64,000 nucleotides of DNA from Rhodobacterales bacterium HKCCE4037 (GTDB lineage Bacteria; Pseudomonadota; Alphaproteobacteria; Rhodobacterales; Rhodobacteraceae), in contig WVSM01000007.1 of assembly GCA_015689645.1 (NCBI GenBank), forward strand, positions 1-64,000, given 5' to 3'. Below, one piece after another: positions 15,030-29,247 of the stretch (position 1 is its first letter; every line of letters begins with the position of its first letter). The notes beneath the pieces are model-generated. The model saw only the letters and a program-made list of their open reading frames with translations. It was not told the origin of the DNA and did not search any database. The position numbers were made by a program, and so were the translations under genes.

Positions 15030-15073
15030 CTTCCCCGCTCTTCTCAACCCGGACCTTTTTTCCGCAACCAACA

Positions 15074-15097
15074 CCATCTTTGTTCCGGAAATATGCC
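15074..15097 (-). repeat. Dispersed repeat copy B (inverted)
   Basis: CCATCTTTGTTCC at 15074-15086, the reverse complement of the GGAACAAAGATGG core, continuing to GGAAATATGCC. It lies in the 213-bp gap after the FAD oxidase gene. Confidence 0.65.
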
Positions 15098-15242
15098 AGG
15101 GGGAGTCCGCAGGACGGGGGATAGCGTCCCCCTCCCCGAGGTAGACCGGCGCAAGCCGGGCAAGGAGACAAGAAACCTGCGGGCTTGCCCGCTCCGCCAG
15201 ATCACGTCACCAAGGTCACACCCAAGTCAAAGGCCAGGTTCC

Positions 15243-15650
15243 ATGTCCTTCCTCCGTCGCCTCTGCCTCGTCTACGCCGCAATCCTGCTGGCCGTGGCCG
15301 CCATCAACTACATCCCCGGCCTCACCGATGACGAGGGGCTGGCCTTCGGGATCTTCGCGCTCGACCCCTTCGATGACGCGCTACACCTCGCCTCGGCGAT
15401 CTGGGCGTTTCTCGCCGGGCTGATCTCGAACCGCTCCGCCCGCATGTTCCTCCTGATCTTCGGGGCCGCGTATCTGGCGGATGGCATTTTCGGCATCTTC
15501 ACCGGCTGGGGCTTTCTCGATTTCGCGATCTTCACCAACGAGTCCCTCGGCCCCGAGTTCAGCTACCTGCGTCTCGCGGCCAACGCGCCCCATATCGGGT
15601 TGGGCGGCATCGCGCTTCTGGCGGGCCTTCTCGGCGGACGGCGCGCATGA
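15243..15650 (+). CDS. Small integral membrane protein (DUF4383-like)
   Basis: A 135-residue protein with four predicted hydrophobic helices: residues 5-24, 46-62, 68-88 and 112-130. The layout and a conserved-looking HLASAIWAFLAG segment resemble DUF4383-type membrane proteins of unknown function. The start at 15243 gives an N-terminal membrane helix. It overlaps the next gene by 4 nt (ATGA), so the two are likely co-translated. Confidence 0.75.
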   Translation: MSFLRRLCLVYAAILLAVAAINYIPGLTDDEGLAFGIFALDPFDDALHLASAIWAFLAGLISNRSARMFLLIFGAAYLADGIFGIFTGWGFLDFAIFTNESLGPEFSYLRLAANAPHIGLGGIALLAGLLGGRRA

Positions 15651-16693
15651 GGCACCTGGGGCGGGTCGTCAAACGTCTGGCCCAGCTTCTGCTGATGCTG
15701 GTCCTGGCGCTCGCTGCGCCCTCGCTTTACGTCGAAACCCTCTGCCGCCCGTCTGGCGAGGCTGCCCCCGCCAATCCGCTCAGCGGCGAGACCCGGCCCG
15801 AGATCCGCACCCTTCTGACCTATCCGGAATGGCATATCGTGCATGCCTATGACGACTACGCCGAGGTCATCGACCAGGGTGATCCGCACGACTTCGGTTA
15901 CCTGCGCGCCGTGGCGGGATATTGGACCTCGCTTTGCACGCTCACCCGCGCCAGCGGGGGGCTGGGAGAGATCGACGGCGGCACAAGACAGCTTGTCCAC
16001 GTGATCGGCGTCTCCTTTACCGTCGAGATGCTGATGAAAGGTCTTTACGAGGAGACCCTGGGCCGCATCGCCACCTGGGTTCGCGGGCCCGAGCCTGCCC
16101 GGCTGGACAGGTTGTCCGCCCTCCAGGCCGCCGAATACGCCGCGTTCCTCCAACAAGTGCCGTGGTATCGCTACGATTTCCGCGAGGAGGCCGCAACGCT
16201 CGACGCCGCCGCCACCGACGCGTTCCGGGATCGCGAACGCGCCTTTGCCCTCGGCCTCGAACACCGCGTCCGTGCAGCCTATGCGGATGTGATCGCGCAG
16301 GCCGTGGCGGCAACGGGGTTCGATGACCTGACCCTGCAGATGGTTGTGTCCGGCCTGTCGCGCGAGCAGATCGAAGCCGTGGACGGCGTGACGATCCTTG
16401 GTGAGGCGTCCGTCGGGATCGAAATCGAAACCCCCCGCTACCGGGAACTGACCGGGATTCTCGCCGATTGGGCGGATCAGGGCGCCACGTTCCTCGACAT
16501 GGCGGGCAACGATCAGATCATGTTCACCGCCCTGTCGGATCGCGAAGAGGTGCCGGGCACGCTCGCCTCCCTGCCTCGGCAAGGCTACGGCGACACGCGG
16601 CACCTCTTCCTCGTGCCGGTCACGTCGCTCGCCGAAGCCTTGCGCGGGTTGGAAGACAGCGGTCTGACCCTTGAGCACATCCATGATTATTGA
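15647..16693 (+). CDS. Hypothetical membrane-anchored protein
   Basis: A 348-residue protein with one N-terminal hydrophobic helix (residues 10-28) ahead of a soluble domain, so it is probably periplasmic and membrane-anchored. I do not recognise the family. Trp/Tyr/His-rich blocks such as TYPEWHIVHAYDDYA and VPWYRYDFREEAA suggest a conserved alpha-helical domain. It is coupled by ATGA overlap to the small membrane protein upstream and followed 27 bp later by another small unknown gene. Confidence 0.72.
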   Translation: MRHLGRVVKRLAQLLLMLVLALAAPSLYVETLCRPSGEAAPANPLSGETRPEIRTLLTYPEWHIVHAYDDYAEVIDQGDPHDFGYLRAVAGYWTSLCTLTRASGGLGEIDGGTRQLVHVIGVSFTVEMLMKGLYEETLGRIATWVRGPEPARLDRLSALQAAEYAAFLQQVPWYRYDFREEAATLDAAATDAFRDRERAFALGLEHRVRAAYADVIAQAVAATGFDDLTLQMVVSGLSREQIEAVDGVTILGEASVGIEIETPRYRELTGILADWADQGATFLDMAGNDQIMFTALSDREEVPGTLASLPRQGYGDTRHLFLVPVTSLAEALRGLEDSGLTLEHIHDY

Positions 16694-16720
16694 CGCGCAG
16701 AACCGCACTCTCGGCACCAC

Positions 16721-17017
16721 ATGCTGAAACGTATCCTCATCGCCCTGCCGCTTGTTTTCGCAGGCTGGATCGCGACCCTCGCGCTGGTCATGCGCCTTGG
16801 CGGAGAGGCCCCTGCCGCCTTCGTGCCGTTTCCACCCAACGACTTCGTCGCCGCCCTGCCTGCCGATATCGCCATCACGGGGCGTTCGCCGATTTCGCTG
16901 ACCGTGCGCTCCGACACCACGGATCTGCCCGCCACCCTCTACGCCGCCGGGGCTTGGCTGGTCCTTCCTGCGGGGCTGGAGGCCTGTATCCCGAACTTCC
17001 TGCGGGAGGACGTCTGA
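16721..17017 (+). CDS. Small hypothetical protein with N-terminal membrane/signal segment
   Basis: A 98-residue protein beginning with a hydrophobic stretch (ILIALPLVFAGWIATLALVM) that could be a signal anchor. The remainder is a short, possibly beta-rich domain. No family was recognised. It follows the 348-residue gene on the same strand by 27 bp and may be the end of that small operon. Confidence 0.55.
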   Translation: MLKRILIALPLVFAGWIATLALVMRLGGEAPAAFVPFPPNDFVAALPADIAITGRSPISLTVRSDTTDLPATLYAAGAWLVLPAGLEACIPNFLREDV

Positions 17018-17051
17018 GACATCTTCCTGACTTGCCCTGTCAGCAGAATGC

Positions 17052-17486
17052 ATGACGCAGAATGCCTTGGCTGCTAGGCTCCTACCCGTGGAACGGCCGG
17101 CACCGATATCCGCCGCGCGCGACAAGCGGCACCGCGAACGCTTGATGAAGATGCGTTCCTTGATTTTCGCCGCCGCCGAGGCGACCGGGACGTCACCGCT
17201 GACCGAAACGCTGAAATGGGGGCAACCCGCCTACCTTCCCGCGAAACGGGCGGGGACCACGCTGCGGCTTGGGGTGGAGGCGGATCAACCGGCCCTCTTC
17301 GTGCATTGCCAGACGGACCTCGTCAGTCGCTACCGCGTACTTTTCCCGACGGAATTCCGTTATTCAGGCAGCCGCGCGGTGCTGCTGCCTCCGCAGGGTC
17401 CGTTCGCTGAGGCGGCATTCCAGCAGATCGCGGCGATGGCGATGACCTACCACCGGGATAGACGGGCCTTGGAGGACAAGGCTTAA
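17052..17486 (+). CDS. DUF1801-family protein
   Basis: A 144-residue soluble protein resembling the DUF1801/YdhG fold. The ETLKWGQPAYLP motif is typical (E-x-x-KWG-P-Y), followed by a beta-rich section and C-terminal FAEAAFQQIAAMAM. The biochemical role of the family is unresolved. It lies 34 bp after the preceding unknown gene and 169 bp before the kinase start, so it probably closes the upstream transcription unit. Confidence 0.72.
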   Translation: MTQNALAARLLPVERPAPISAARDKRHRERLMKMRSLIFAAAEATGTSPLTETLKWGQPAYLPAKRAGTTLRLGVEADQPALFVHCQTDLVSRYRVLFPTEFRYSGSRAVLLPPQGPFAEAAFQQIAAMAMTYHRDRRALEDKA

Positions 17487-17655
17487 ACGTCCCCGAACCG
17501 GGACCGTACAATTCGCGCGGCATTGCGGGCAATCGGCCCGGAACGCCCCGCTACACGCCACATTCCGGACACATTTCGACCGCCCAATCCGGAGTGCGAC
17601 TGTGCGCCCGGATGGTCCTGGCCGCGTCGCCCCAAGTGAACCAGCAGGCGACGTG

Positions 17656-18987
17656 ATGGAACCCGAACCCACCCCACAGGGAGATGAGCTGCCCCCCGGC
17701 GCGACCCTCTGCGGCGGGCAATACACGATCGACGGCTACCTGAACGCGGGCGGCTTCGGCGTGACCTATATTGCGCGCGACAGCCTTGGCCGCCGGGTCG
17801 TCGTCAAGGAATGTTTCCCCAGCGCGATGTGCTTCCGCTCCAACCAGACGGTCTGCGTCCGCAGCCAGGGCAATGCGGTGGAATTCGATGCGATCCTCGA
17901 GTTGTTCGAGAAGGAGGCGCGAGCGCTCGCCAGCCTGCAACACCCGTTCATCGTGGGTGTGCACCAGTATTTCCGGGACAACGGCACCGCTTACATGGCG
18001 ATGGATTTCGTCGAAGGGCGCACACTTCTCGAATTGATCGAGACGGCGCCGCACGAGCTGACGCCCGAGCGCGTGAAAACCCTGCTGTCGCAACTCTTGC
18101 AGGCGTTGAGCTACATCCACCGCAACGACATCCTGCACCGCGACATTTCTCCCGACAACATCCTGATCGAGGCGAGCGGCCTGCCCGTGCTGATCGACTT
18201 CGGCGCCGCGCGCGAGGATGCGACGCGCGTCAGCCGGGTGCTGTCGAAACTCCAGACCGTGAAGGACGGGTATTCACCGCAGGAATTCTATGTCGCGGGC
18301 AGCGAACAGACCTATTCCAGCGACCTCTACGCCCTGGCCGCCACGTTCTATCATGTCGTCATGGGCACCGCCCCACCGTCGAGCCAGACCCGCATGGCCG
18401 CCGCCGCCCGCGACGATGCAGACCCGCTGCCGCAGCCGCCACGTATCGAAGGCTACGACACGGCGTTCATCGCGGCGATCTGGGCCTGTCTCGGCCTGTT
18501 CCCCAGGGACCGTCTGCGCGACGCCGATGCGTGGCTCGCGACGATGGATGAGACCGTGCGCCAGCAGCGTTTGCTGGAACAGGCGGAACAGGACGCGGCC
18601 CTCGACACCACCGTGTCGCATCTCGTTCGCGATTTCTTCCGTGACTTCAAACCGAAACCGCCGGAGCCGCCGAAATCTGCGGCGCAAGCCGCGCCGCCCA
18701 AGCCGGCCGTCGTGCGGATCGTGGCTCCGGCACCAGAGCCAGAGGGTCAGGATACCGCGGAAGAGGCCCCGGTTCCGCCGCCCCGCCCCGTCAGCCAACC
18801 CCGAAAGCCGCGTCTGCAGCCGATCGAGAAGATGCATCTGAAATACCAGCGCCCCGCCCCGGCGCTGGACCCGAAGCCGAAGCGTGAAACAACGACCCGG
18901 TCCGGCTGGCTGTCGCTTTTCAGTCGCACCTTCTCGGCCGGTCGCAAAACCTCGTCCGGGGACAACACAGCAGAGGAAATCGCATGA
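17656..18987 (+). CDS. Bacterial Ser/Thr protein kinase heading the kinase-FHA-phosphatase-GTPase operon
   Basis: A 443-residue Hanks-type kinase. The glycine loop AGGFGVTY is at about residues 31-38, catalytic Lys in VVVKECFP at 51, HRDISPDN at 161-168 and DFGAAR at 181-186, so it looks active. It belongs to the bacterial group whose N-lobe reads KEYFP (here KECFP). The C-terminal ~150 residues are Pro-rich and disordered, with basic clusters and no transmembrane helix, so it is probably cytosolic or recruited by partners. The start at 17656 (MEPEP) is preferred; an in-frame GTG at 17602 would add 18 residues. It overlaps the FHA gene by ATGA. Likely substrates are the FHA protein and the GTPases encoded downstream. 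Confidence 0.9.
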   Translation: MEPEPTPQGDELPPGATLCGGQYTIDGYLNAGGFGVTYIARDSLGRRVVVKECFPSAMCFRSNQTVCVRSQGNAVEFDAILELFEKEARALASLQHPFIVGVHQYFRDNGTAYMAMDFVEGRTLLELIETAPHELTPERVKTLLSQLLQALSYIHRNDILHRDISPDNILIEASGLPVLIDFGAAREDATRVSRVLSKLQTVKDGYSPQEFYVAGSEQTYSSDLYALAATFYHVVMGTAPPSSQTRMAAAARDDADPLPQPPRIEGYDTAFIAAIWACLGLFPRDRLRDADAWLATMDETVRQQRLLEQAEQDAALDTTVSHLVRDFFRDFKPKPPEPPKSAAQAAPPKPAVVRIVAPAPEPEGQDTAEEAPVPPPRPVSQPRKPRLQPIEKMHLKYQRPAPALDPKPKRETTTRSGWLSLFSRTFSAGRKTSSGDNTAEEIA

Positions 18988-19673
18988 GCATCAACAGATT
19001 ACGAAGCGTTGCCGTTCGCATGCGCCCGCCGGTTCCGACCAGCGACGGACCGACGGAAGGCCAGACCGGTCACGTGGCAAGCGGCCCCCGCCGCGTGGTG
19101 GTCAGCCGCCCCGGCGCAAAGGCAAGACGCCAGATCTGGGACCTTCAGGATGAGACGCGCAGTCCGAACGAGCCGGTCCCGGCCGAGGCTTCTTCTGCAC
19201 CGGTGGAAAGCGCCGCACCTGCACCTGTGGTCAGGCCTTCGCCCGCGAAGACCCGCATCATCGGTTTTCACGCCGAGGCCATCGCCGGTGACATCCAGCC
19301 CGAAGCGGCAAGCGGCCCCGCATATCCCGCCGGGTTTCTCGTCGTGACGGACGGCCCAGGCCGTGGCGCTCATTTCGTGGTCACTACCCGTGTCTCGACC
19401 ATCGGGCGTGGCGAGGATCAGGATATCCGCCTCGACTTCGGCGACGAGAACATTTCGCGGGCGGGTCATGCCTCGGTGATGTTCGACGCCGAGCAGAACC
19501 GGTTTTTCCTCGGCCACGGAAACAAGGCCAACGCGGTGCGCCGCAACGACCGCCCGGTTCTTGCCACGGAAGAGCTTGAACATGGCGACGTGCTGCGCAT
19601 CGGCAAGACCAGCCTGCGGTTCCACGCCTTCTGCGGTGCCGATTTCTCGTGGGGCGGTCCGGATCATGACTGA
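18984..19673 (+). CDS. FHA-domain protein of the kinase-GTPase operon
   Basis: A 229-residue protein with a disordered N-terminal half and a C-terminal FHA domain (about 117-215): TIGRGEDQDI, ENISRAGHAS and RRNDRPV. FHA domains read phosphothreonine, probably placed by the adjacent kinase. A K-T-R-I motif puts Thr90 just before the FHA domain, the same position and motif (KTRI) as Thr90 of the paralogue at 824-1513. The two proteins also have identical length and the same SLRF-AFCG-DF-W ending. It overlaps the kinase gene by 4 nt and the phosphatase gene by 8 nt. Confidence 0.88.
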   Translation: MSINRLRSVAVRMRPPVPTSDGPTEGQTGHVASGPRRVVVSRPGAKARRQIWDLQDETRSPNEPVPAEASSAPVESAAPAPVVRPSPAKTRIIGFHAEAIAGDIQPEAASGPAYPAGFLVVTDGPGRGAHFVVTTRVSTIGRGEDQDIRLDFGDENISRAGHASVMFDAEQNRFFLGHGNKANAVRRNDRPVLATEELEHGDVLRIGKTSLRFHAFCGADFSWGGPDHD

Positions 19674-20547
19674 CGCACCGGCACTGGAATACGACGTGGC
19701 CTCGGCCTTGTCGCAAGGCGCGCGCAGCCGACAGGAAGACGCGCTGGCCGTGGCCTTCGCCGATGGTGCGCCCGAGGGGTTCGCGATCCTATCGGACGGG
19801 ATGGGCGGCCACGCGGCAGGCGATCTGGCCAGCCGCACAATCGTGTCGGAAGCCTTTGCGGTCCTCACCTTGCCGATGGAGGGTGCAGACCCTCAAGCCG
19901 TTCTCGCGGATGCCGTCGAGCGCGCCAACGCGCGTGTCCGGGTTCATGCCACGACCGAGTCCGGCAACTCCGGTATGGGCGGGACGATCATCGCGGCTCG
20001 GGTCGCCGATGCGGCACTTCACTGGGCCTCGGTCGGGGACTCGGTGCTTTACCTCTTTCGCGGCGAAACGCTGACGCGCCTGAATGCCGATCATTCGATG
20101 GCACCTCAACTCGACCTCATGGCCGCGAATGGCGCACTCACTCACGCCGAAGCGGCTTCCCACCCTCAACGCAATTGCCTGACATCCGCCCTGACCGGCC
20201 AGCCGATCGCCGAGATGGATTGCCCCGACATTCCGGTCGAATTGCGCAACGACGATATCGTCCTGCTGGCCAGCGACGGTCTGCAATATCTGCCTGACCC
20301 GATTATCGAAGCCCTGCTTCTAAGGGCGCGCGGAAACAGCAGCCGGCACATTGCGCGGGACCTGCTGGATGCCTTGGCCACGCTGAACGACCCCGAACAG
20401 GACAATACCGCCCTGGTCGTCATACGACCGATACGGCCGAGACCCCGTGCGCGGCGCATCGGCCTGCTGAATACCCCCGCCGCAATGGTCAAGGCGATGC
20501 GGAAGGCCGTCGGGCCTTCGGTCCGATCGGTGGTGCGGAGAAGCTGA
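19666..20547 (+). CDS. PP2C-family protein phosphatase of the kinase-GTPase operon
   Basis: A 293-residue metal-dependent Ser/Thr phosphatase, expected to reverse the kinase's action. All metal-binding Asp blocks are present: RQEDALAV, LSDGMGGHAAGD, LLASDGLQYL and DPEQDNTALVVI. The C-terminal 35 residues are basic (RPRPRARR, then AMRKAVGPSVRSVVRRS), which could aid membrane or partner binding. The start at 19666 (MTDAP) was chosen over an upstream in-frame ATG at 19561, which would lie deep inside the FHA gene. It shares one base with the next start codon (TGATG). Confidence 0.9.
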   Translation: MTDAPALEYDVASALSQGARSRQEDALAVAFADGAPEGFAILSDGMGGHAAGDLASRTIVSEAFAVLTLPMEGADPQAVLADAVERANARVRVHATTESGNSGMGGTIIAARVADAALHWASVGDSVLYLFRGETLTRLNADHSMAPQLDLMAANGALTHAEAASHPQRNCLTSALTGQPIAEMDCPDIPVELRNDDIVLLASDGLQYLPDPIIEALLLRARGNSSRHIARDLLDALATLNDPEQDNTALVVIRPIRPRPRARRIGLLNTPAAMVKAMRKAVGPSVRSVVRRS

Positions 20548-21704
20548 TGCACGCAGGTCGCACGGACAAGGACGAAACCCTCGCCCGGCTGGAGGCGCTC
20601 ATGTGCGCCCCCCGGCTGGCCGGTGCGGAGGCTGACCGGTGTGCGCGATTGCTCGACGCGTTGCGCACACCCGCGCGCGTCTGCCTGATGGGGCCGGTCC
20701 AGAGCGATCTGCGCACCATCCTCTACAGCATTCTGGACACCGACTTCGCGCCCGACGGCCTCGCCCTGCCGCCGGCCATTGAAATCCGTCACGGTCCAGT
20801 GATCCGAACCCAGGCCACGCTGGAAGACGGCCAATTGAAATCCTCAGACGGCTGGCCGAGTGTCGCCCTTCTGTCCGAGGCACCGGTGTTTCTGCAGATA
20901 GATGCTCCGGCAGAAATCCTGCGCCGCATGTCGATCCTCGCTCTCACGCTCGAGGCCGATCCCGCGATGCACCGGCCAGCCCTGTCCTGGGCCGCGCGGA
21001 GGACCGAAATCGCTGTCTGGTGCACGCCATCCTTCGGCGTTGTCGATGCGGGGATCTGGGCCAATGCGCCGGAGCGGCTGATGCACCGCGCCTATCTGTT
21101 GGAAACCCGGCCCGAGGACGAACGCTGCGATGCCGGCCCTGCCAGCGGTTTCACAACCGTCCTTCACATCCCCCTGCCCGGCGATATTGCACCGCTCCTG
21201 AGTCAGTTGGATGCAGATATCGACGAAGCGCGGCTGGCGGATATGGATGCGGCGCAGATGGTGTTGCACCGACTTGGGCCGCTGGTGACTGACCTGCCCG
21301 ACGCACCCCTGCCGAACGGTCCTGTTCTGGCCGATCGCAGCGCGGCACAGCTTGCCTACCTGAGCGAGATCCTTTCTGAACCGACGCTTTTCCTCAGCCG
21401 TCGCGCCCGCTCCCTTGCCGAAGATCTGACGTGGGCCGCAGTCGAAGAGCCGGAGGCTTGGGCCGAAGCCGCCCTCGGCCATTGCGCCGAAACCGCCGAA
21501 GGCCTGCGGGACCGCGCCAGCGGTTGGCCCGACGATCTGCCGGAACTCGAAGCCCTTTCGCTGATAATCGAAGAGGCGGCGGACCAGATCGTCTTGCTGC
21601 AAATGGAGAACGGTGCCGAACAGGTGGAGGATGCGGCGGGCCTCCTTCACCAGATGAGGGTGGCTTTCGACCAATGCCACCGGGGCATGGGAATGGCGGC
21701 ATGA
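20547..21704 (+). CDS. GTPase-fold protein with degenerate P-loop (putative pseudo-GTPase)
   Basis: A 385-residue protein that looks like a decayed relative of the GTPase at 23758-24561. VCLMGPVQSDLRTIL (residues 45-59) aligns with VALLGEFSAGKSTLA of that GTPase, but the GxxxxGKS Lys/Ser are lost. EIAVWCTPSFG with the following IWANAPERLMHRAYLL aligns with VAIWCTPATQA and IWDAMPARLHQRSLLL. It also lacks the DxPG and TRID guanine motifs. The C-terminal ~140 residues are acidic and helical. I infer a non-hydrolysing partner or scaffold for the two intact GTPases. It is coupled to its neighbours by TGATG and ATGA overlaps. Confidence 0.7.
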   Translation: MHAGRTDKDETLARLEALMCAPRLAGAEADRCARLLDALRTPARVCLMGPVQSDLRTILYSILDTDFAPDGLALPPAIEIRHGPVIRTQATLEDGQLKSSDGWPSVALLSEAPVFLQIDAPAEILRRMSILALTLEADPAMHRPALSWAARRTEIAVWCTPSFGVVDAGIWANAPERLMHRAYLLETRPEDERCDAGPASGFTTVLHIPLPGDIAPLLSQLDADIDEARLADMDAAQMVLHRLGPLVTDLPDAPLPNGPVLADRSAAQLAYLSEILSEPTLFLSRRARSLAEDLTWAAVEEPEAWAEAALGHCAETAEGLRDRASGWPDDLPELEALSLIIEEAADQIVLLQMENGAEQVEDAAGLLHQMRVAFDQCHRGMGMAA

Positions 21705-23761
21705 AACATGAGCCCGACATTCAGGGCCTCGCCCCGCATCAGGCCCTTCTTGCGCAGGCCTACCGTGGTCTCAACCCACTGGCACGGGACCTGTCGCGTC
21801 TGCAAGCGTCGCTCGACCACTTGCGACTGGCGGGAGGAGAAACCTACGAGACGCAGATCCGGACCCTTCGGCAGGACATCCGTGCCTATGCGCCTTCGGT
21901 GACCCTGATCGGACAGGTCAAGGCTGGCAAGACCTCGCTGGCCAACGCTATGGCGGGGAAAATCGGGTTGCTGCCATCCGACATCAATCCGTGGACATCG
22001 GTCGTGACCTCGGTGAACCTCTCCCCCCGCCGCTCCGGATCGCAGGAAAAGGCGCAGTTCCGCTTCTTCACCGATGCCGAATGGGAGAACCTGCTGTCGA
22101 CCGGCGGGCGGGTGGGGGAGCTGGCGAGCCGCGCGGGCGCGGATCAGGAGCTCGAGAAAGTGCGCGGGCAGCTTGCGGCGATGCGAGCGGCGGCGCGCCA
22201 AAGGCTCGGCGACCAGTTCGAGATGCTGCTCGGACAGACCCACGACTACGGTTATGTCGATGCGGAATTGGTGCAGCGCTATGTCTGCCTGGGCGACGAG
22301 GCCGATGGCGATCCGGCGCAGGGGCGCTTTGCCGATATCACCCGTTCGGCGGAACTATCGGTCTGCCAGCCCGCCCTCCCCATGCCGATTTGCCTTCGCG
22401 ATACGCCGGGCGTGAACGACACGTTCATGGTGCGCGAACAGATCACCGTGAACGCGATCCGGGGCAGCCGGCTGTGCGTGGTTGTCCTTTCGGCGCATCA
22501 GGCTTTGTCGAACGTCGACCTCGCGCTTGTGAGGTTGATCGCCAACGTGCCGTCCCGCGACGTGATCATCTTCGTCAACCGCATCGACGAATTGACCGAT
22601 CCGGCCGGCGACATCCCGGAAATCCGCGTTTCAATTCAGGCGACATTGAAATCCCTCAACGTGCCGACCGACGCAGAGATCCTGTTTGGAAGCGCACGAT
22701 GGGCAAATGCAGCCTTGGCCGGCGATTTACGGACCATGGGCCGTGACAGTGCTGCGGCATTGCTAAATTGGGCCCGTGCGCAAGCCACACAGGGCGGGCT
22801 CGACAAGGACACCGCCGCGATGGTCTGGGGGCTGTCGGGGCTGCCCGCGCTCGGTCAGGCCATTGCCGACCGGATCGTCGCGGGTGAAGGCGCGGCAAAG
22901 GTTGCCCACATCTCGGGTGCCGCACGAAACATTGCCTCGGCGCTCACTGCCGCAGCCGTCATCGACGAGCGCCGGTTGGTCGAAAGGAGCGCCAATCGCG
23001 TCGACGCGGGCCGCCTCGCCGCCGCGCTCGACCACCTGGCTGAGGACGCGGAACGCAAACTGGAACAGGTGCTTTCTGCCATGAGCTCCGATCTTGACCT
23101 GCGCTTGCGCAAGGCACAGGACGCCTTCGTCAGCCGGGGCACGACCGCCCTTGTCCGTCACCTCGAAACCTTCGGGCAAGAGATCGAATGGACTTATGAC
23201 CCCATCGGTCTGCGGCTGCTCCTGAAATCCGGCTACACCGTTTTCTGCGCCAGGTTGCACAAGGCCGCGGAAGCGATGTATCGCGACAGCGCGCTACAGA
23301 TACAGGCACTCTTCGAAGAGGCGTTCGGCCTGAGCCATACAGGTTTTGCCCTTGAAGCGCCGCCGGTGCCCGACGCGCCGACGCCGGTGATCCTTGGCCG
23401 AACCATCGCACTCGACATCAAGGGAAGCTGGTGGAGCCGATGGTGGCGACGGCGGCGCGACTACACGACCTACGCCGAGGAATTCCGCTCGCTGATCGAG
23501 GCGGAGATTTCGCCGATGGTCACAGCCCTTTCCGACGATCACGCGCTGCCCCATGCGGAAGCTCTCCTGGTGGAGTTGAAAGCGTTCATCGGTGAGCAGC
23601 GTAGCGTGGTTCTTGGCCTTGCTGAGCAGCCGCTCTGCGACCTCGATCATCTGCGCGCGGAACAGGCGAAGAAAGCCGCGATCCGGGCAGGTTCCCTGAA
23701 AGCGGCCTACGGTCTGCTTGTCGATCTCGGCACGAGCCAAATCGATGCGAGGAGAGCATGA
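21701..23761 (+). CDS. Dynamin-like GTPase
   Basis: A 686-residue large GTPase of the bacterial dynamin-like type. G1 is GQVKAGKT (71-78), a possible G2 Thr lies in NPWTSVVTS, G3 is DTPG (234-237) and G4 is NRID (293-296). A long helical stalk follows, with a moderately hydrophobic segment near LRLLLKSGYTVFCARL and a WWSRWWRRRRDY patch (about residues 577-588) suited to contact membrane phospholipids. Dynamin-like proteins reshape or fuse membranes using GTP. The start at 21701 is supported by ATGA overlap with the preceding gene; an upstream in-frame codon would duplicate that gene's coding DNA. Confidence 0.85.
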   Translation: MKHEPDIQGLAPHQALLAQAYRGLNPLARDLSRLQASLDHLRLAGGETYETQIRTLRQDIRAYAPSVTLIGQVKAGKTSLANAMAGKIGLLPSDINPWTSVVTSVNLSPRRSGSQEKAQFRFFTDAEWENLLSTGGRVGELASRAGADQELEKVRGQLAAMRAAARQRLGDQFEMLLGQTHDYGYVDAELVQRYVCLGDEADGDPAQGRFADITRSAELSVCQPALPMPICLRDTPGVNDTFMVREQITVNAIRGSRLCVVVLSAHQALSNVDLALVRLIANVPSRDVIIFVNRIDELTDPAGDIPEIRVSIQATLKSLNVPTDAEILFGSARWANAALAGDLRTMGRDSAAALLNWARAQATQGGLDKDTAAMVWGLSGLPALGQAIADRIVAGEGAAKVAHISGAARNIASALTAAAVIDERRLVERSANRVDAGRLAAALDHLAEDAERKLEQVLSAMSSDLDLRLRKAQDAFVSRGTTALVRHLETFGQEIEWTYDPIGLRLLLKSGYTVFCARLHKAAEAMYRDSALQIQALFEEAFGLSHTGFALEAPPVPDAPTPVILGRTIALDIKGSWWSRWWRRRRDYTTYAEEFRSLIEAEISPMVTALSDDHALPHAEALLVELKAFIGEQRSVVLGLAEQPLCDLDHLRAEQAKKAAIRAGSLKAAYGLLVDLGTSQIDARRA

Positions 23762-24561
23762 TGAACGACGATCCAAGACCAGCGCGTGTTGCCCTGCTTG
23801 GCGAATTCTCAGCCGGGAAAAGCACGCTGGCTAACGTGCTACTGGGACGGGCGCAATCGCCGGTGAAGGCGACCGCCACCCAGATGCCGGCGCTATGGTA
23901 TCGCTTCGGCACGGGCGCCCCGACGCGCAAATGTGAAGACGGCACCAAGCACACGCTGCCGGGAATTGCCGGAACCGTTGCTTCGGTCGACGGCACGCAG
24001 GCCATCGACGTCCCTTTGGACGCGCCGATCCTGCGCCGGTTCGACTTGCTCGATCTGCCGGGAAGCTCGGACCCGAACATGCCCGCGACCGCATGGGATG
24101 CAATCCTCCCCGAGGTGGACGTTGCCATCTGGTGCACGCCAGCGACGCAGGCGTGGCGGCAATCGGAGGCCGCGATCTGGGACGCGATGCCGGCCCGGCT
24201 CCACCAACGTTCGCTTCTGCTGCTGACGCGGATCGACAAGGTCGGCGTAGCGGACCGGGCGCGCGTGCTGCGGCGGATCCGCGGCGAAGCCTCTGCAAGA
24301 TTCCGGCATATCCTGCCCGTCGCTCTTCTGTCCGTCAGTGAGCCGCCTTGGGCGTGTGAGGCCTCCGGCCTCGACAAGGTGTTTGAGGCGCTCGACGATC
24401 TGCTGGCCCATGAAACGCCGCGCCCCGAACCTACGGTCGCGCCGGACACATCCACCGATACGCCGGACCTCCCACGGCCCGTCGTGCCACGCCGCGTGGT
24501 CTCGTTGAAAGGCGGTCGCCCGGCCCGTCGGCGCGCCTCCGAGAACAGGCCGTTGATCTGA
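23758..24561 (+). CDS. Small dynamin-type GTPase
   Basis: A 267-residue GTPase. G1 is GEFSAGKST (15-23), G3 is DLPGSSDP and G4 is LTRID. Residues beyond about 215 form a Pro-rich, basic tail (RRVVSLKGGRPARRR), which may bind membrane or partners. The G1 motif and ATATQMPALWYR switch region resemble the N-terminal domain of dynamin-family proteins without the stalk. It overlaps the large GTPase gene by ATGA. Two ATG codons occur in tandem (23758 and 23761), so the exact start is uncertain by one residue. Confidence 0.85.
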   Translation: MMNDDPRPARVALLGEFSAGKSTLANVLLGRAQSPVKATATQMPALWYRFGTGAPTRKCEDGTKHTLPGIAGTVASVDGTQAIDVPLDAPILRRFDLLDLPGSSDPNMPATAWDAILPEVDVAIWCTPATQAWRQSEAAIWDAMPARLHQRSLLLLTRIDKVGVADRARVLRRIRGEASARFRHILPVALLSVSEPPWACEASGLDKVFEALDDLLAHETPRPEPTVAPDTSTDTPDLPRPVVPRRVVSLKGGRPARRRASENRPLI

Positions 24562-24564
24562 GCC

Positions 24565-24927
24565 ATGGCCGAGGCTGCCCACGATATGCTCCGCGCGTTC
24601 TGCACCGCGAACCCGTCCTGCGCCCTTCTTGCGCTCAGTGACCTTCGGGTCGGAACAATGTTGCTCGCCCATGGGGAACTGACCTACCCACAGGAATATC
24701 TGGACGCCGTGAGCTGTTTTGCCCGGGACGCCCTGACCGTGGCCGGAGCCGGCGCGGACCACATGATCTTCTGTACCCCGGAAAGCACGCGGCTGGTTGT
24801 GCGAGAGACTCGGCCGTCGGACCTCGCCCTGACAGCCTTTGCACCGCCGGATGCCGATCCGCGCCCTTTGCTCGAGGCGCTCCGCCAACTCGTCGCGAGC
24901 TTTGCGCCAAACGCGCTGGCCGCATGA
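24565..24927 (+). CDS. Roadblock/LC7-like small protein
   Basis: A 120-residue protein whose apparent alpha-beta-beta-alpha-beta-beta-beta-alpha order matches the Roadblock/LC7 (MglB-like) fold: CALLALSDLRVGTMLLA as the first strand pair and DHMIFCTPESTRLVVRE as the later strands. Roadblock proteins regulate small GTPases, often as GAPs or scaffolds, which fits its position just after two GTPase genes. The assignment rests on pattern and context, not on strong motif identity. It overlaps the next gene by ATGA. Confidence 0.5.
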   Translation: MAEAAHDMLRAFCTANPSCALLALSDLRVGTMLLAHGELTYPQEYLDAVSCFARDALTVAGAGADHMIFCTPESTRLVVRETRPSDLALTAFAPPDADPRPLLEALRQLVASFAPNALAA

Positions 24928-25670
24928 CAAACATCGACCGCATATGCGCCACGCTCAATGTCGTGGCCCGGGTCGGCGCTGTCACTGGCGGTGTGCGGGA
25001 CCTTCCGACGTTGCTTGAGGCCTTCAATCGCACGATCCTGCCGCGGCGGTTTCTGTTGCAGCACAAGCGCGGAGAGATTTCGTTCCTCGTCAGCAACCGC
25101 CGATTGCATCGGATGGAGCATGCCAGCGCGCGTGGCCTTCCCTGGAACAGGCCCTTGGGCGCCGAACATCGCGCCGACGTTGGCAAGGCGCTTCTATCCC
25201 TCTGCGCCGCTGCCCCCCTGGACCGGGTCGACGTCACGCCCTGCGGGCCGGGCGCGCCGTTCGACGGGTTGGGCATCGCCGCTCCTGATCTGATCGCATT
25301 CGTCGGTTCGAGCGTGGCCGCCTTACCCGATTTGCAGACGCGCATCGTGGATTTCGCCCGCCGGCATCCCGAACAGGTCGAGGCGAGTTTCCTCATGGCC
25401 GAGGACGCGATCGCGACCCTTACCGGCAACGAGGAGGACATCGAGCGTGTTTTTCCAAGCGTGTCCGACATGCTCGACCGCGCCACTGCGCCAACCTGTT
25501 CGCTCACCGCCAGCCTCGAGACCGACGGCGCATTGGCCGTGCCACGGCCGCCATATGACGACGGCAGCTTCCTGATTGCGGGTGAGGTCGGATTGCTCGG
25601 CGTCCTGGTTCTACGCGACCTCCCGGCGACCGACGCGATGGCCCACTGGCGGACGGCTCAGGTTGCTTGA
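24924..25670 (+). CDS. Uncharacterised last protein of the kinase-GTPase operon
   Basis: A 248-residue soluble protein I cannot assign. Segments such as RRFLLQHKRGEISFLVSNRRLHRM and DLIAFVGSSVAALPDLQ suggest an alpha/beta fold, perhaps with a second Roadblock-like half, but no motif is decisive. It has no signal peptide or membrane helix. ATGA overlap with the preceding gene ties it to the operon. Its 3' end overlaps the 3' end of the convergent lacI-type gene by 13 bp. Confidence 0.75.
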   Translation: MTNIDRICATLNVVARVGAVTGGVRDLPTLLEAFNRTILPRRFLLQHKRGEISFLVSNRRLHRMEHASARGLPWNRPLGAEHRADVGKALLSLCAAAPLDRVDVTPCGPGAPFDGLGIAAPDLIAFVGSSVAALPDLQTRIVDFARRHPEQVEASFLMAEDAIATLTGNEEDIERVFPSVSDMLDRATAPTCSLTASLETDGALAVPRPPYDDGSFLIAGEVGLLGVLVLRDLPATDAMAHWRTAQVA

Positions 25671-26695
25671 CCGGCGGGGGCTGGCCCAAGCGATCCACGC
25701 CGCAACACCTCGGTCGTAAGGCATTCGCTTTCCAGCGGCGTGCCCTCCTCGAGCAGACCGACCAGCGCGCGGGCGGCGCGGCGGCCCATGTCACGGTGCG
25801 GCACCCGAACCGTGGCAATCTCGGGAAAGGTCACCTGCGACAATTCCAGATCGTCGAACCCGGTGATCGAAACATCGCCCGGCACATCCAATCCCATGGC
25901 CCGTGCCTGTTTCATCGCGCCCACGGCCAGCACATCGTTGGCGCAGAGCACCGCGGTCGGCGGGGTGTCGTTGCGCATCACCTCCGCAAAGCCCGCAGCC
26001 CCGGTGTCGATCCCGTAACGCGTCAGGTGGATCACGAGACTGTCGCGGGACAATCCCGCCTCCGCCACCGCGTCCTGCACCCCGCGCAGCCGTTCTGCCG
26101 CGCGATCGTTGGTTTCCGTTTCCGCAGCGATCATCGCGATGCGGCGGTGACCGAGGTTCAGCACCTCCCGTGTCAGCGTCCGCATTGCGCCGCGATTGTC
26201 GAAGCCAACGCTCGGCTCCGTTCGTGTCGGATCGTACGCCCATGTGATCAAGGTGGGCACGTTGCGCATCGCGATGAATTCGGAAATCGCCGCGGCGCGA
26301 TCGTAGCCGATCAACAGGAGCGCATCGGCCCCTCGCGCGACCAGCGCCCTTACCTGACGCTCCTCGAGGTCGGTTCGATAGGCCGAGCTGGCCACCAGCA
26401 AGGTGTATCCGGCACGGTCAAGCTCTTCCTGAAATGCCTGGATGCCGCGCGCGAATATCGCATTCTCCATCGTCGGGATGATCGCCCCGATGGTTCGCGT
26501 GCGTTGCGACGCCATCACACGGGCGCCGAAATTCGGTGAATACCCCAAGGTGTCAATCGCCTCCTGAACCCTGGCGCGGGTTCGCGACGACACGCGGTCT
26601 GGAAAGTTGAGGCAACGCGAAACCGTTGCGGTCGAGACCGCGGCAAGGCGGGCCACGTCCTCAAGCGTTGGCACGGATCTGGTCTGTTCGCTCAT
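25658..26695 (-). CDS. LacI-family transcriptional regulator
   Basis: A 345-residue LacI/GalR regulator. The N-terminal helix-turn-helix is TLEDVARLAAVSTATVSRCL with the hinge helix following. The periplasmic-binding-protein-like effector domain contains IGAIIPTMENAIFARGI and SITGFDDLELSQ. The start at 26695 has an AGGGACGAC Shine-Dalgarno. The target is unknown; it may regulate itself through the inverted repeat at 26762-26780, or act with the GntR regulator on the adjacent TTT operon. It is transcribed convergently with the kinase-GTPase operon. Confidence 0.9.
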   Translation of the reverse strand: MSEQTRSVPTLEDVARLAAVSTATVSRCLNFPDRVSSRTRARVQEAIDTLGYSPNFGARVMASQRTRTIGAIIPTMENAIFARGIQAFQEELDRAGYTLLVASSAYRTDLEERQVRALVARGADALLLIGYDRAAAISEFIAMRNVPTLITWAYDPTRTEPSVGFDNRGAMRTLTREVLNLGHRRIAMIAAETETNDRAAERLRGVQDAVAEAGLSRDSLVIHLTRYGIDTGAAGFAEVMRNDTPPTAVLCANDVLAVGAMKQARAMGLDVPGDVSITGFDDLELSQVTFPEIATVRVPHRDMGRRAARALVGLLEEGTPLESECLTTEVLRRGSLGPAPAGQAT

Positions 26696-26761
26696 GTCGT
26701 CCCTGCCCGATTGCACCTTTCGGCCCCTGCCCCAGGTGCATCCTTCAGGTCAGCCTGCCAA

Positions 26762-26780
26762 TGCAAGCCCTTTCATTGCA
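26762..26780. promoter_or_regulatory. Possible LacI-type operator
   Basis: Inverted repeat TGCAA-N9-TTGCA 67-85 bp upstream of the lacI-type gene. The symmetry fits a LacI-family site, but the spacing is not canonical. Confidence 0.3.
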
Positions 26781-26847
26781 AGGCGAGAGCATGGCGCGCA
26801 ACTGTATTGGCACCGACGTCCTGACGGAACTTGCGCCGATTAAGCGA

Positions 26848-27600
26848 TCATGCCGCGCCCGCGTCCTGGCGGAGCAGCGCCAGCGCAGTCACGCCCACGG
26901 ACTCGGCCTCAGTGCTCTTGGTGAGACGCCTGAGATTGGCGAGCGCCGTGCGGGCATGTTCGCGCGTGATCGCCTCGGCCCGGGTTCCTTCCCGCGCTTT
27001 GATCGACGCAAGGATCTCGCGATGCTGCGCTTGCGCCGCGCGCAGGCCTTCGGCAAATTCCGAGGGTCGACGGTCCTGCGGCAAGAAGGCAGAGGGCGAC
27101 GCGAAAGGCAGGCGCTTGATCCGCTCCAGCTCCGTCGCGATAACGGACGAGCCCGACATCTGCGCCAGCATGTCGTGAAATTTCATGTTCAGGGCAGAGT
27201 AGTCGTCGAAGTCCAGATTCTCCGGAAGCGCCGCGACGCAACGGTCCAACTTTGCCATGAGCGCCTCGGCATCCCGAGCCTGACGGTCCGATAGTCCACG
27301 CTCCGCCGCGAAGCGCGCTGCCGTACCTTCAAGGATGCCACGCAGCTGAATCGTGTCGGCAAAATCCTCGTAGGCAAAGGTGCGCACGACGAAGCCGCCG
27401 CTTTCGCCCCGCTCGATCAGCCCTTCTTCAGCCAGCCAGGACATGGCCGCGCGGACGGGGGTGCGCGAAATGCCCAGATCGCCCGCAATCTCGGCCTCGT
27501 AGATCCTGGACCCGCCGCTGTAATTTCCGTCGAGGATGCGATGCCGGAGGGCGATCGCCGCCCGCATCGTTTGTGAATTGGCCCTGTTGCTGTTCTGCAT
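26848..27600 (-). CDS. GntR-family (FCD domain) transcriptional regulator
   Basis: A 250-residue GntR regulator of the FadR/FCD subgroup. The winged helix-turn-helix contains EAEIAGDLGISRTPVRAAM and LAEEGLIER. The helical FCD effector domain shows the metal-binding His residues in MKFHDMLAQMSG and AQHREILASI. The start at 27600 (MQNSN) has AGAAGGG upstream; a longer in-frame ATG at 27705 would run through a GTATAC operator-like site. It is divergent from the TTT/amidohydrolase operon and probably represses it until an organic-acid inducer binds. Confidence 0.9.
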   Translation of the reverse strand: MQNSNRANSQTMRAAIALRHRILDGNYSGGSRIYEAEIAGDLGISRTPVRAAMSWLAEEGLIERGESGGFVVRTFAYEDFADTIQLRGILEGTAARFAAERGLSDRQARDAEALMAKLDRCVAALPENLDFDDYSALNMKFHDMLAQMSGSSVIATELERIKRLPFASPSAFLPQDRRPSEFAEGLRAAQAQHREILASIKAREGTRAEAITREHARTALANLRRLTKSTEAESVGVTALALLRQDAGAA

Positions 27601-27690
27601 TCGCCCTTCTTCCACCAACTTCCGGACGCTGGAAATGCCCCCCGGGAAAATGCCCGAAAGCGCGCCGACGTCGTCCAGCTCGCCTCGAAC

Positions 27691-27696
27691 GTATAC
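27691..27696. promoter_or_regulatory. GTATAC half-palindrome site 1
   Basis: GAACGTATACATTGC, about 91 bp upstream of the GntR start. It is a candidate autoregulatory operator; FCD regulators commonly bind short GTATAC- or TNGTNNNACNA-like palindromes. Confidence 0.4.
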
Positions 27697-27877
27697 ATTG
27701 CACACTATTTTGGCAAAAGACGTGCTTCACTTTCGGGAAAAGTTGGGTCCGTCCGGAGGCCGAAAATCGGCCAAATTCGCATGAAGAGCTCATTCCAGCA
27801 TGGAACTCCGCGGGTCGGCAGCCGAAGCAGACCGGTGCCTGCACGCGACGGAAAGTTAACACGCTCGCCCGAATCTG

Positions 27878-27883
27878 GTATAC
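27878..27883. promoter_or_regulatory. GTATAC half-palindrome site 2
   Basis: TCTGGTATACATAGA, midway in the divergent region. It shares the GTATACAT octamer with site 1. Confidence 0.4.
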
Positions 27884-28032
27884 ATAGATCTTGGACGAGC
27901 AAGGAGAGGCCAAAGCCGCTCGGGACACGTCAGATTGCCGGCAGAGCCTTTGATGCAAGGCAAATGCAGCACTCTTTACGATCCGAAAGCGACGATTCGC
28001 CAACGCGCGAAAATACAAGGCCGCACAAGACT

Positions 28033-28038
28033 GTATAC
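28033..28038. promoter_or_regulatory. GTATAC half-palindrome site 3
   Basis: GACTGTATACTTTAAG, 46 bp upstream of the TctC-like start. This position would block transcription of the operon if occupied by a repressor. Confidence 0.45.
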
Positions 28039-28083
28039 TTTAAGTGACCGGGCTACAGGGCCCGAACCATCTGGGAGGATATA

Positions 28084-29172
28084 ATGAATACCACTTCACC
28101 ACTTTCTCTGCGGGGCGTTCTGGGCGCAGCAAGCCTTGGACTTTTGCTGTCCGCAGGCACCGCCATGTCGCAGGTCATCGACCTCGAGGGTGAGACCGTC
28201 ACCATTGTCCACAACGCTGCTCCCGGTGGCTCCACCGGATTGTCGAGCCAGGTTCTGGCCGATGTCTGGGCTCAGACGATGGAAGGCAACCCGACGATCG
28301 TCGTCCAGTCCGTCGAAGGCGGCGCCCTGACCCGAGGGATTCAACAGGTCATGAACTCGCGTCCCGATGGCCTCACCATCGGCTACGTGGCATGGCAGGG
28401 CACCACACGCATCCTCGACCCCGAAGAATTGCAGATCCCGTTCCAGGATGCGGGTATCATCGGCGGCATCGGCGGCGCGGCCTTCTTCACGCATGTGGAT
28501 GCAGAGGTAGCCGCGGACGGAGACGCCTTCGCAAACCTGGAGTCGCTGCGGTTCGGCGGCTTCTCGCCGCGTTCGGCCCCTTCGATGCAGATGGCCGGCG
28601 TGCTCGACCTTCTGGGCGTCGACTGGTCCTTCGTGTCCGGAATGGGCGGCGATGGCCCTCTGCGGGCGGCGATGGAGCGGGGTGAGATCGAAGCCTACCC
28701 CGCGACTGTCTCGATCTATCTTCAGGACCTACGGGACGGGCCGATCGCGGCCGGCGAGACCACGGGCATCTATCACATCGGCCGGATCGACGAGGACGGC
28801 GCGGAACAGCCCATCGAAGCCTTTGGTGGCGCCTTCCCGACGGTGACCGAATATCTCGCCGCGCAACTGGGCGAGACCCCGTCCGGCCCGATCTGGGACA
28901 TGATCATGTTCCACAGTGAAGCCTCCGCCCCGGTCAACTGGCTGGTCATGGCCCCTCCGGGCACGTCCGAGGAGCACCTCGCCATGCTGCGCGAAAGCTT
29001 CGCCGAAGCGGTTCAATCGCCCGAGTATCTGGAGGCGGCGACCAACGTTTTCGGGGGCGAGCCGAACATCGTGCTCTACGAGCAGATGCTCGATATCGTG
29101 AACACCGTGCAGAACACACCGGAAGAGCTGCGCGAAACGATGCGCGCCTACATCGCCGAGATGGAAGGCTGA
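28084..29172 (+). CDS. Tripartite tricarboxylate transporter substrate-binding protein (TctC/Bug family)
   Basis: A 362-residue periplasmic solute receptor. A Sec signal peptide covers about residues 1-30, ending in TAMSQ. Blocks typical of Bug receptors are NAAPGGSTGLSSQVLADVW after strand 1, GGALTRGIQQVMNSRPDG, and the C-terminal LVMAPPGTSEEHL. It should deliver a carboxylate ligand to the fused permease encoded next. It is the first gene of the operon, preceded by GGGAGGATATA. The ligand cannot be read from sequence. Confidence 0.9.
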   Translation: MNTTSPLSLRGVLGAASLGLLLSAGTAMSQVIDLEGETVTIVHNAAPGGSTGLSSQVLADVWAQTMEGNPTIVVQSVEGGALTRGIQQVMNSRPDGLTIGYVAWQGTTRILDPEELQIPFQDAGIIGGIGGAAFFTHVDAEVAADGDAFANLESLRFGGFSPRSAPSMQMAGVLDLLGVDWSFVSGMGGDGPLRAAMERGEIEAYPATVSIYLQDLRDGPIAAGETTGIYHIGRIDEDGAEQPIEAFGGAFPTVTEYLAAQLGETPSGPIWDMIMFHSEASAPVNWLVMAPPGTSEEHLAMLRESFAEAVQSPEYLEAATNVFGGEPNIVLYEQMLDIVNTVQNTPEELRETMRAYIAEMEG

Positions 29173-29190
29173 TCGCACGTCAGGCTTAGC

Positions 29191-29218
29191 GGGGCCGCGC
29201 CCGGACGGGTGCGGCCCC
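29191..29218 (+). promoter_or_regulatory. Intercistronic hairpin between receptor and permease genes
   Basis: GGGGCCGC-N12-GCGGCCCC. An internal hairpin after a binding-protein gene often keeps receptor mRNA more abundant than permease mRNA by partial termination or 3' protection. Confidence 0.5.
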
Positions 29219-29247
29219 CTCCCTCGATCGCGGGCTTGGAGTCCACC

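Follow-up and report, generated by a model that had tools for sequence, protein, structure and literature searches.

A conserved eight-gene operon of Rhodobacterales that joins kinase, FHA and PP2C genes to a dynamin-like protein, two related GTPases and a Roadblock-fold protein: a candidate membrane-remodeling system

Introduction

Bacterial dynamin-like proteins (DLPs) are mostly paired in operons, and the pair of Campylobacter jejuni tethers membranes (PMC6104087, in its accessible sections). Here we describe an eight-gene block of Rhodobacterales bacterium HKCCE4037, located in a 64,000-nucleotide stretch of contig WVSM01000007.1 (the whole stretch is hereafter called the window), which encodes a DLP having the dynamin-type G domain in common with Cj-DLP1/2 of C. 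jejuni and BDLP1 of Nostoc. While some relatives of this locus have two DLPs side by side, the operon of the window has a single one, placed between a putative pseudo-GTPase and a small GTPase and accompanied by kinase, FHA, PP2C and Roadblock genes; no partner of any of these four kinds is named for Cj-DLP1/2 in the accessible sections of PMC6104087. The parts and their linkage can be observed directly; that the eight genes make up one operon for a regulated membrane-remodeling machine is what we infer from them, with moderate confidence.

Small GTPases are regulated by Roadblock proteins, often acting as heteromers, such as MglB with RomY or Ragulator for the Rag GTPases (PMC9481161, in its accessible sections). 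As in the MglA/MglB system of Myxococcus, the window has a small GTPase (g2) beside a Roadblock-fold protein (gene 7), and MglB is among the structural matches of the latter. Unlike MglA, however, g2 matched no Ras-like or MglA family in Pfam or NCBIfam, and no motility genes were seen beside it. Membership in the MglA/MglB type was rejected or weakened for want of a Ras-like match in g2. The eukaryotic Rag GTPases with Ragulator, which lead the match list of gene 8, also combine two GTPases with Roadblock-fold partners. This likeness is at the level of fold only; here, one of the GTPases is without the catalytic switch motif and the supposed output is a DLP. For its part, the combination of kinase, FHA and PP2C proteins is known from type VI secretion systems (T6SS), where the members of the triad are named PpkA, Fha and PppA.

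Results

Eight linked genes with a conserved order

The block (17656-25670) consists of eight + strand genes with ATG starts and TGA stops, which run in the order Ser/Thr kinase, FHA protein, PP2C phosphatase, degenerate GTPase (g1), DLP, small GTPase (g2), Roadblock protein and gene 8 (Table 1). The seven junctions measure, in order, -4, -8, -1, -4, -4, +3 and -4 nt. All the open reading frames (ORFs) and junctions of a preliminary description of this DNA, which had reported overlaps of 1 to 8 nt and a 3-nt gap between the sixth and seventh genes, were thus confirmed. The GC content of the block (65.5%) is close to that of the window (65.2%), and its composition therefore does not mark it as foreign; the source genome has 3.84 Mb. 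In 10 locus pairs, 72 of the 77 gene comparisons had finite dS; in these 72, dN/dS was at most 0.51, and it was below 1 for all eight genes (Nei-Gojobori method, with several dS values close to saturation and with longest-ORF starts, which were used in all the relatives).

When GTDB species genomes were scanned with a DLP alignment, 493 encoding stretches were obtained, the best 80 of which were kept; all 80 were Rhodobacterales by title. The eight genes appeared in order in 64 of these 80 loci, g1 and g2 being counted under one label because their profiles overlapped, and a further 12 showed a contiguous part of the operon that ended at a contig end. Neither description applied to the remaining four: L052 and L053 are apparent artefacts of over-long ORFs, g1 is in two pieces in L089, and gene 8 is in two pieces in L118, which has 3 kb of upstream sequence where nothing was recognized. 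Many of the 80 loci are from near relatives and do not count as independent. With this scope, the recurrence of the order goes beyond chance, and the union of phospho-signaling genes with a DLP, a small GTPase and Roadblock-fold proteins that the preliminary description had pointed out is a conserved unit.

Among the genomes sampled from the family, 101/394 carried the DLP. The class sample gave 2 matches in 385 genomes, corresponding to the window genome and another of the same family, and the phylum sample gave 9 in 398, eight of them in the family and the ninth (G1101) belonging to a different family of that class. The family, class and phylum counts scored the best two or three candidates per genome, so that a weak or third copy could escape detection. 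In the sampled genomes, the operon is thus restricted largely to a single bacterial family. Its presence in the same order in distant bacteria, raised earlier as a question to be settled by genome searches, was not found, both class matches and eight of the nine phylum matches belonging to this family, and other phyla being covered by the best 80 of the 493 GTDB stretches. Relatives of gene 7 and gene 8 were found in 53/248 and 50/248 family genomes, respectively. When the lists were compared by hand, every genome with a relative of either gene turned out to belong to the 101 that carry the DLP, which ties genes 7 and 8 to the DLP even when they are located elsewhere in the genome.

The distribution also bears on a possible role of the DLP in shaping photosynthetic intracytoplasmic membranes. 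Among the genomes of the same genus (G000-G012), reaction-centre genes were present in 8/8 DLP-positive and in 1/5 DLP-negative genomes, a comparison uncorrected for kinship, which is probably what the link reflects. Among the other sampled members of the family, by contrast, the proportions were 3/8 and 5/16, and genomes G017 and G019 contain all eight genes and no reaction-centre genes. Such full operons without a reaction centre weaken this proposal as a general role, and we regard it as very improbable.

The dynamin-like protein and its GTPase relatives

The window DLP matches the Dynamin_N G domain of Pfam (1.1e-10; 42.3 bits, above the cut-off of 27), with both the G1 and G3 motifs present. 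The best matches of its profile among solved structures were PDB entries 5owv (6.8e-9), which we take to be the Cj-DLP entry, and 2j68, a bacterial dynamin-like protein (5.5e-7). The P-loop GQ[VI]K[AS]GKT and the motif DTPG[VI]ND were kept in 83/83 sequences, and a WWxxW aromatic-basic motif was found in 72/83, which we propose as a candidate membrane element. These and the following motif counts comprise at most 82 loci plus the window. They omit L027, L028, L032 and L034, which are copies of L046, L047, L048 and L054, together with nine loci (L036, L037, L039, L040, L041, L076, L077, L099 and L118) where the script detected none of the kinase, FHA and PP2C genes on the DLP strand. Transmembrane (TM)-like segments were called by a simple hydropathy script, which detected a hydrophobic stretch in 22/82 DLP orthologues and also in gene 8 of the window.

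LeoABC and Bacillus subtilis DynA also involve bacterial DLPs, and we know of no kinase or Roadblock partner for either of them. The PADLOC LeoA model matched the window DLP weakly (2.9e-12), whereas the NCBIfam LeoA model NF041922 did not match it at E values of up to 1; with the latter model, g2 reached 12.3 bits against a cut-off of 325.

For its part, g2 was recognized by the Pfam models Dynamin_N (3.1e-8) and MMR_HSR1 (4.2e-5), and its motifs GEFS[ASV]GKS and D[MFL]PG were each kept in 83/83 sequences. Catalytic motifs were likewise intact in the kinase, the phosphatase and the DLP. The situation of g1 is different. Unmatched by any model of Pfam, NCBIfam or PADLOC, this protein is a g2 paralogue (31% over 154 aa by tblastn) that shows GPVQSDLR at the P-loop site where g2 has GEFSAGKS, in agreement with the designation of gene 4 as a degenerate GTPase in the preliminary description. 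The window g1 has neither GxxxxGK[ST] nor DxxG. Among the 83 g1 sequences, GxxxxGK[ST] was kept in 51, while DxxG was found in 2 and its site falls in a gap in another 2. The dN/dS values of g1 ranged from 0.07 to 0.34. By these sequence features, g1 is a pseudo-GTPase that has lost the catalytic switch motif and is under purifying selection.

Roadblock-type proteins

None of the Pfam, NCBIfam and PADLOC models matched gene 7 itself, and when 61 members of its family were scanned with Pfam, the 19 families matched did not include Roadblock. Its AlphaFold model, built from 61 sequences, had a mean pLDDT of 93.7 and showed the order helix-strand-strand-helix-strand-strand-strand-helix. When this model was compared with the PDB by using Foldseek, the best match was a Roadblock protein (9jq8_B, 4.1e-6), and MglB (6h5b_B) was retrieved at 8.8e-4. 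In all, 45 of the 46 matches with E values of 0.001 or less were Roadblock, Ragulator-type, Rag-complex or MglB proteins, the other one being the mite allergen Tyr p 36. The earlier description of gene 7 as Roadblock-like therefore holds in the modeled structure: the protein is predicted to be a Roadblock by fold, not by sequence family.

Gene 8 gave only a chance-level Pfam match (E, 0.052). In its AlphaFold model (55 sequences; mean pLDDT, 87.6), the C-terminal half repeats the helix and strand order of gene 7. The best Foldseek match was Ragulator (5y3a_G; E, 6.3e-3), none falling under 0.001, and 48 of the 50 matches listed were Roadblock, Ragulator-type or Rag-complex proteins, the other two being MON1A-CCZ1. 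On this model, a Roadblock-like domain is probably part of gene 8. It had been presented previously as unknown, which stands insofar as no convincing family was found and falls short insofar as the fold shows a weak likeness to Roadblock and Ragulator proteins. Searching the PDB by sequence with the profiles of genes 7 and 8 returned nothing useful.

In two loci composed of two genes, L040 (6462-7724) and L041 (6322-7743), the C-terminal region of the GTPase looked Roadblock-like by eye; neither hhalign nor, for one of the regions, a PDB sequence search confirmed this appearance.

Kinase, FHA and PP2C proteins

The kinase was identified by Pfam Pkinase (7.5e-30), and its HRD-type and DFG catalytic motifs were found in 75/76 and 76/76 sequences, respectively, the window included. 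The FHA domain (Pfam, 4.6e-7) occupies residues 139-207, that is, the C-terminal part of its protein. The phosphatase matched PP2C_2 of Pfam (1.4e-8) and, at 3.2e-41, the Stp1_PP2C model of NCBIfam, where its 141.4 bits lie below the cut-off of 230; its motif DG[ML]GG was kept in 81/83 sequences. The window kinase showed no TM-like segment, which was present in 16/75 kinase orthologues. The kinases of L088, L095, L101 and L104 are long, with one TM-like segment and a C-terminal part that is PDZ-like by eye.

Kinase-FHA-PP2C triads regulate T6SS elsewhere, where the same three protein types are clustered, and these three genes could serve such a system here, with the rest of the block as a bystander. 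TssC was indeed commoner in DLP-positive (5/16) than in DLP-negative (2/21) family genomes sampled, excluding a weak hit in G052. Nevertheless, it was absent from 10 of the 15 other DLP-positive genomes and from the window genome, and the FHA protein scored 19.4 bits, far below the TagH cut-off of 120.25. T6SS control was rejected or weakened on these last two grounds, and among all the alternatives considered it is the one to which we give the least credit. The earlier observation that the window has no Tss gene can be extended to the whole window genome for TssC (PF05943), the one Tss gene for which the genome was searched.

Alternative layouts and origin of the operon

The window block contains one large DLP, whereas relatives such as L173-L181, L187 and L188 contain two. 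Several layouts were distinguished among the relatives. A DLP with one GTPase was found in L040, L041, L166, L167, L172, L182 and L184, and the same arrangement with genes 7 and 8 nearby in L165 and L168-L171. Two DLP-GTPase pairs follow each other in a row in L037, L174-L178, L181, L183 and L188, whereas L173 and L179 have genes 7 and 8 between the two pairs. L187 (Ruegeria pTHAF33_a) and L180 (genome G439) also have genes 7 and 8 between two pairs, and there the kinase, FHA and PP2C genes come after them; this layout may be the most complete version of the system. In L187 this layout was seen at 15001-30511, and two proteins with LysM or solute-binding matches come next. In L165, L168 and L170, genes 7 and 8 are followed by a gene that by eye encodes an ABC-type ATPase, by a DLP of the second type and by its GTPase.

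In a tree of 82 chosen GTPase rows, all 29 g1 proteins fell on one branch (100/99), which lies within a group (98/92) that includes 11 second-pair GTPases. The g2 proteins formed a single branch (100/98), nested in a group (99/95) to which 14 first-pair GTPases also belong. The place of g1 in the tree, together with the existence of relatives with two DLP-GTPase pairs, suggests that the eight-gene form may derive from a form with two DLPs and two GTPases, from which the second DLP would have been lost and its GTPase kept as g1.

Plasmids and genomic neighbors

The DLP was present on 18 plasmid records (12 from Leisingera, 5 from Ruegeria and 1 from Rhodobacter) and in no phage record. Four of these records were inspected. 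Besides the Ruegeria plasmid with its two-DLP form (L187), a plasmid of Leisingera aquaemixtae carries the eight genes in order, genes 4, 7 and 8 being named 'hypothetical protein', while in a plasmid of Leisingera sp. S132 the genes are split into two divergent groups and that of Rhodobacter sp. CZR27 has two DLP-GTPase pairs only.

Among the flanks of 48 chosen loci, 126 of 172 proteins within the set limits were scanned. The commonest families were ABC transporters (6) and response regulators (6), followed mostly by enzymes, regulators and transporters (25 of 108 families listed). At 1e-20, three PADLOC models were matched, namely, mad3 (6 members, which are probably ABC ATPases), WYL (1 member) and a GlgB model (1 member), in a scan with no background control.

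These data are relevant to a role in anti-phage or anti-plasmid defense, in which the kinase would sense infection and the DLP would seal or disrupt the membrane. The patchy presence of the DLP, its plasmid copies and the PADLOC LeoA match would fit such a role, as would the match of the kinase to PD-T4-6 kinase models (2.2e-44) and the delay of phage lysis caused by B. subtilis DynA (PMC8844932, in its accessible sections). However, the kinase was matched by 36 PADLOC models, for which no cut-off is given, and the PD-T4-6 match may therefore be generic; with the MADS kinase MAD6 equivalog, it scored 129.1 bits, below the cut-off of 460. Moreover, the DLP evolves slowly (dN/dS of 0.03 to 0.24 in 10 pairs). 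A defense-island setting was rejected or weakened by the few PADLOC matches in the flanks, and a phage origin by the absence of the DLP from phage records. On balance, we consider defense unlikely, and this part of the preliminary description, which had offered stress or defense beside membrane remodeling, is the weakly supported one.

A further possible role is hinted at by the neighbors of the kinase, FHA and PP2C genes: L187 of Ruegeria and L186 of Leisingera each have, beside these genes, two proteins annotated as substrate binding. Three of these neighbors were scanned, giving two LysM matches and one SBP_bac_3 match below the cut-off, and a cut-off relative is present in L180. The LysM and solute-binding neighbors in Leisingera sp. 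S132 and Ruegeria, together with the TM-like kinases, hint at an envelope signal, although neither feature is present in the window and such neighbors were found in L180, L186 and L187 only among the scanned loci. Envelope-stress repair, with the kinase or neighboring sensors detecting damage to the wall or membrane and the DLP patching the inner membrane, is a physiological role compatible with the phosphorylation-gated switch proposed in the Discussion, and its chances appear to us a little short of even.

Other neighbors were noted on the way. In the window, the final 13 nt of the operon are shared with a convergent LacI-type regulator gene on the opposite strand (25658-26716); relatives of this regulator are also found in stretches L027-L029, from genomes of the same genus. 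A response-regulator family stands beside the operon in nine loci (L038, L058, L059, L093, L094, L103, L112, L114 and L125), seven of which also have a histidine-kinase-like family; the pair in L038 was checked with Pfam. Genes resembling, by eye, catalase-peroxidase and LysR-type genes are near the operon in L029, L046, L047, L049, L050, L051 and L088.

Table 1. Positions in the window of the eight genes and of selected motifs
Feature	Position	Strand	Basis
Gene 1, Ser/Thr protein kinase, 443 aa	17656..18987	+	Pfam Pkinase
Gene 2, FHA-domain protein, 229 aa	18984..19673	+	Pfam FHA
Gene 3, PP2C-type Ser/Thr phosphatase, 293 aa	19666..20547	+	Pfam PP2C_2
Gene 4 (g1), putative pseudo-GTPase, 385 aa	20547..21704	+	Paralogy to gene 6, motif loss, tree
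g1 degenerate P-loop GPVQSDLR	20691..20714	+	Sequence
Gene 5 (dyn), dynamin-like GTPase (DLP), 686 aa	21701..23761	+	Pfam Dynamin_N
dyn P-loop GQVKAGKT	21911..21934	+	Motif kept in 83/83
dyn G3 motif DTPGVND	22400..22420	+	Motif kept in 83/83
dyn aromatic-basic motif SWWSRWWRRRR, candidate membrane-binding element	23426..23458	+	WWxxW conservation; role inferred
Gene 6 (g2), small GTPase, 267 aa	23758..24561	+	Pfam Dynamin_N, MMR_HSR1
Gene 7, predicted Roadblock/LC7-fold protein, 120 aa	24565..24927	+	AlphaFold, Foldseek
Gene 8, 248 aa, C-terminal half Roadblock-like in helix/strand order	24924..25670	+	AlphaFold, Foldseek

Discussion

In the reading that we consider best, for which we would put the chances at about even, signaling by the kinase, FHA and PP2C proteins would gate a switch composed of a GTPase, a pseudo-GTPase and Roadblock proteins, and this switch would control the DLP at the inner membrane. 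Thus, a signal would set the balance between kinase and PP2C, and the FHA protein would bind a phospho-threonine of a partner and assemble the complex. The g2 protein would pair with the dead g1, with gene 7, and probably gene 8 too, acting as a Roadblock-type GTPase-activating protein, guanine nucleotide exchange factor or scaffold. The GTP state of g2 might then load or release the DLP, which would assemble on the inner membrane and tether, bend or seal it. Because DLPs are mostly paired in operons and Roadblock proteins regulate small GTPases, our proposal is that a switch formed by g1, g2 and the Roadblock proteins may take the place of a second DLP.

Several observations weigh against this reading or the origin suggested for the operon. 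The window DLP showed no TM-like segment, and membrane contact therefore rests on family resemblance. The likeness of gene 8 to Roadblock proteins is weak, hhalign found no relation between genes 7 and 8, nor did it relate gene 7 to the C-terminal part of either of two other GTPases, and genome G015 has genes 7 and 8 far from its DLPs. Finally, the second-pair GTPases did not form one clade: 11 of their 22 rows fell away from g1 and several rows are long, so that loss of a second DLP is not the sole possible story.

A more specific form of the phosphorylation-gated switch would resemble Rag-Ragulator: an active GTPase would pair with a dead one on Roadblock proteins, and a eukaryote-like cycle of kinase, FHA and PP2C proteins would time the release of the DLP for inner-membrane remodeling. 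This form is tentative, and we think it rather doubtful. If true, the operon would encode a self-contained, signal-gated membrane-remodeling machine of a kind undescribed in bacteria, and bacteria would unite active and dead GTPases with Roadblock proteins much as Rag-Ragulator does. The parts are known, and no description of their combination was found in open PMC papers, which were the scope of the search, subscription papers and bioRxiv preprints lying outside it; within that scope, the view that the block is not a described unit was borne out.

The operon offers candidate regulators of a bacterial dynamin whose order has been kept across one family, including the plasmid-borne copies of Leisingera, and with it the control of dynamin by phosphorylation and by a GTPase-Roadblock switch becomes directly testable.

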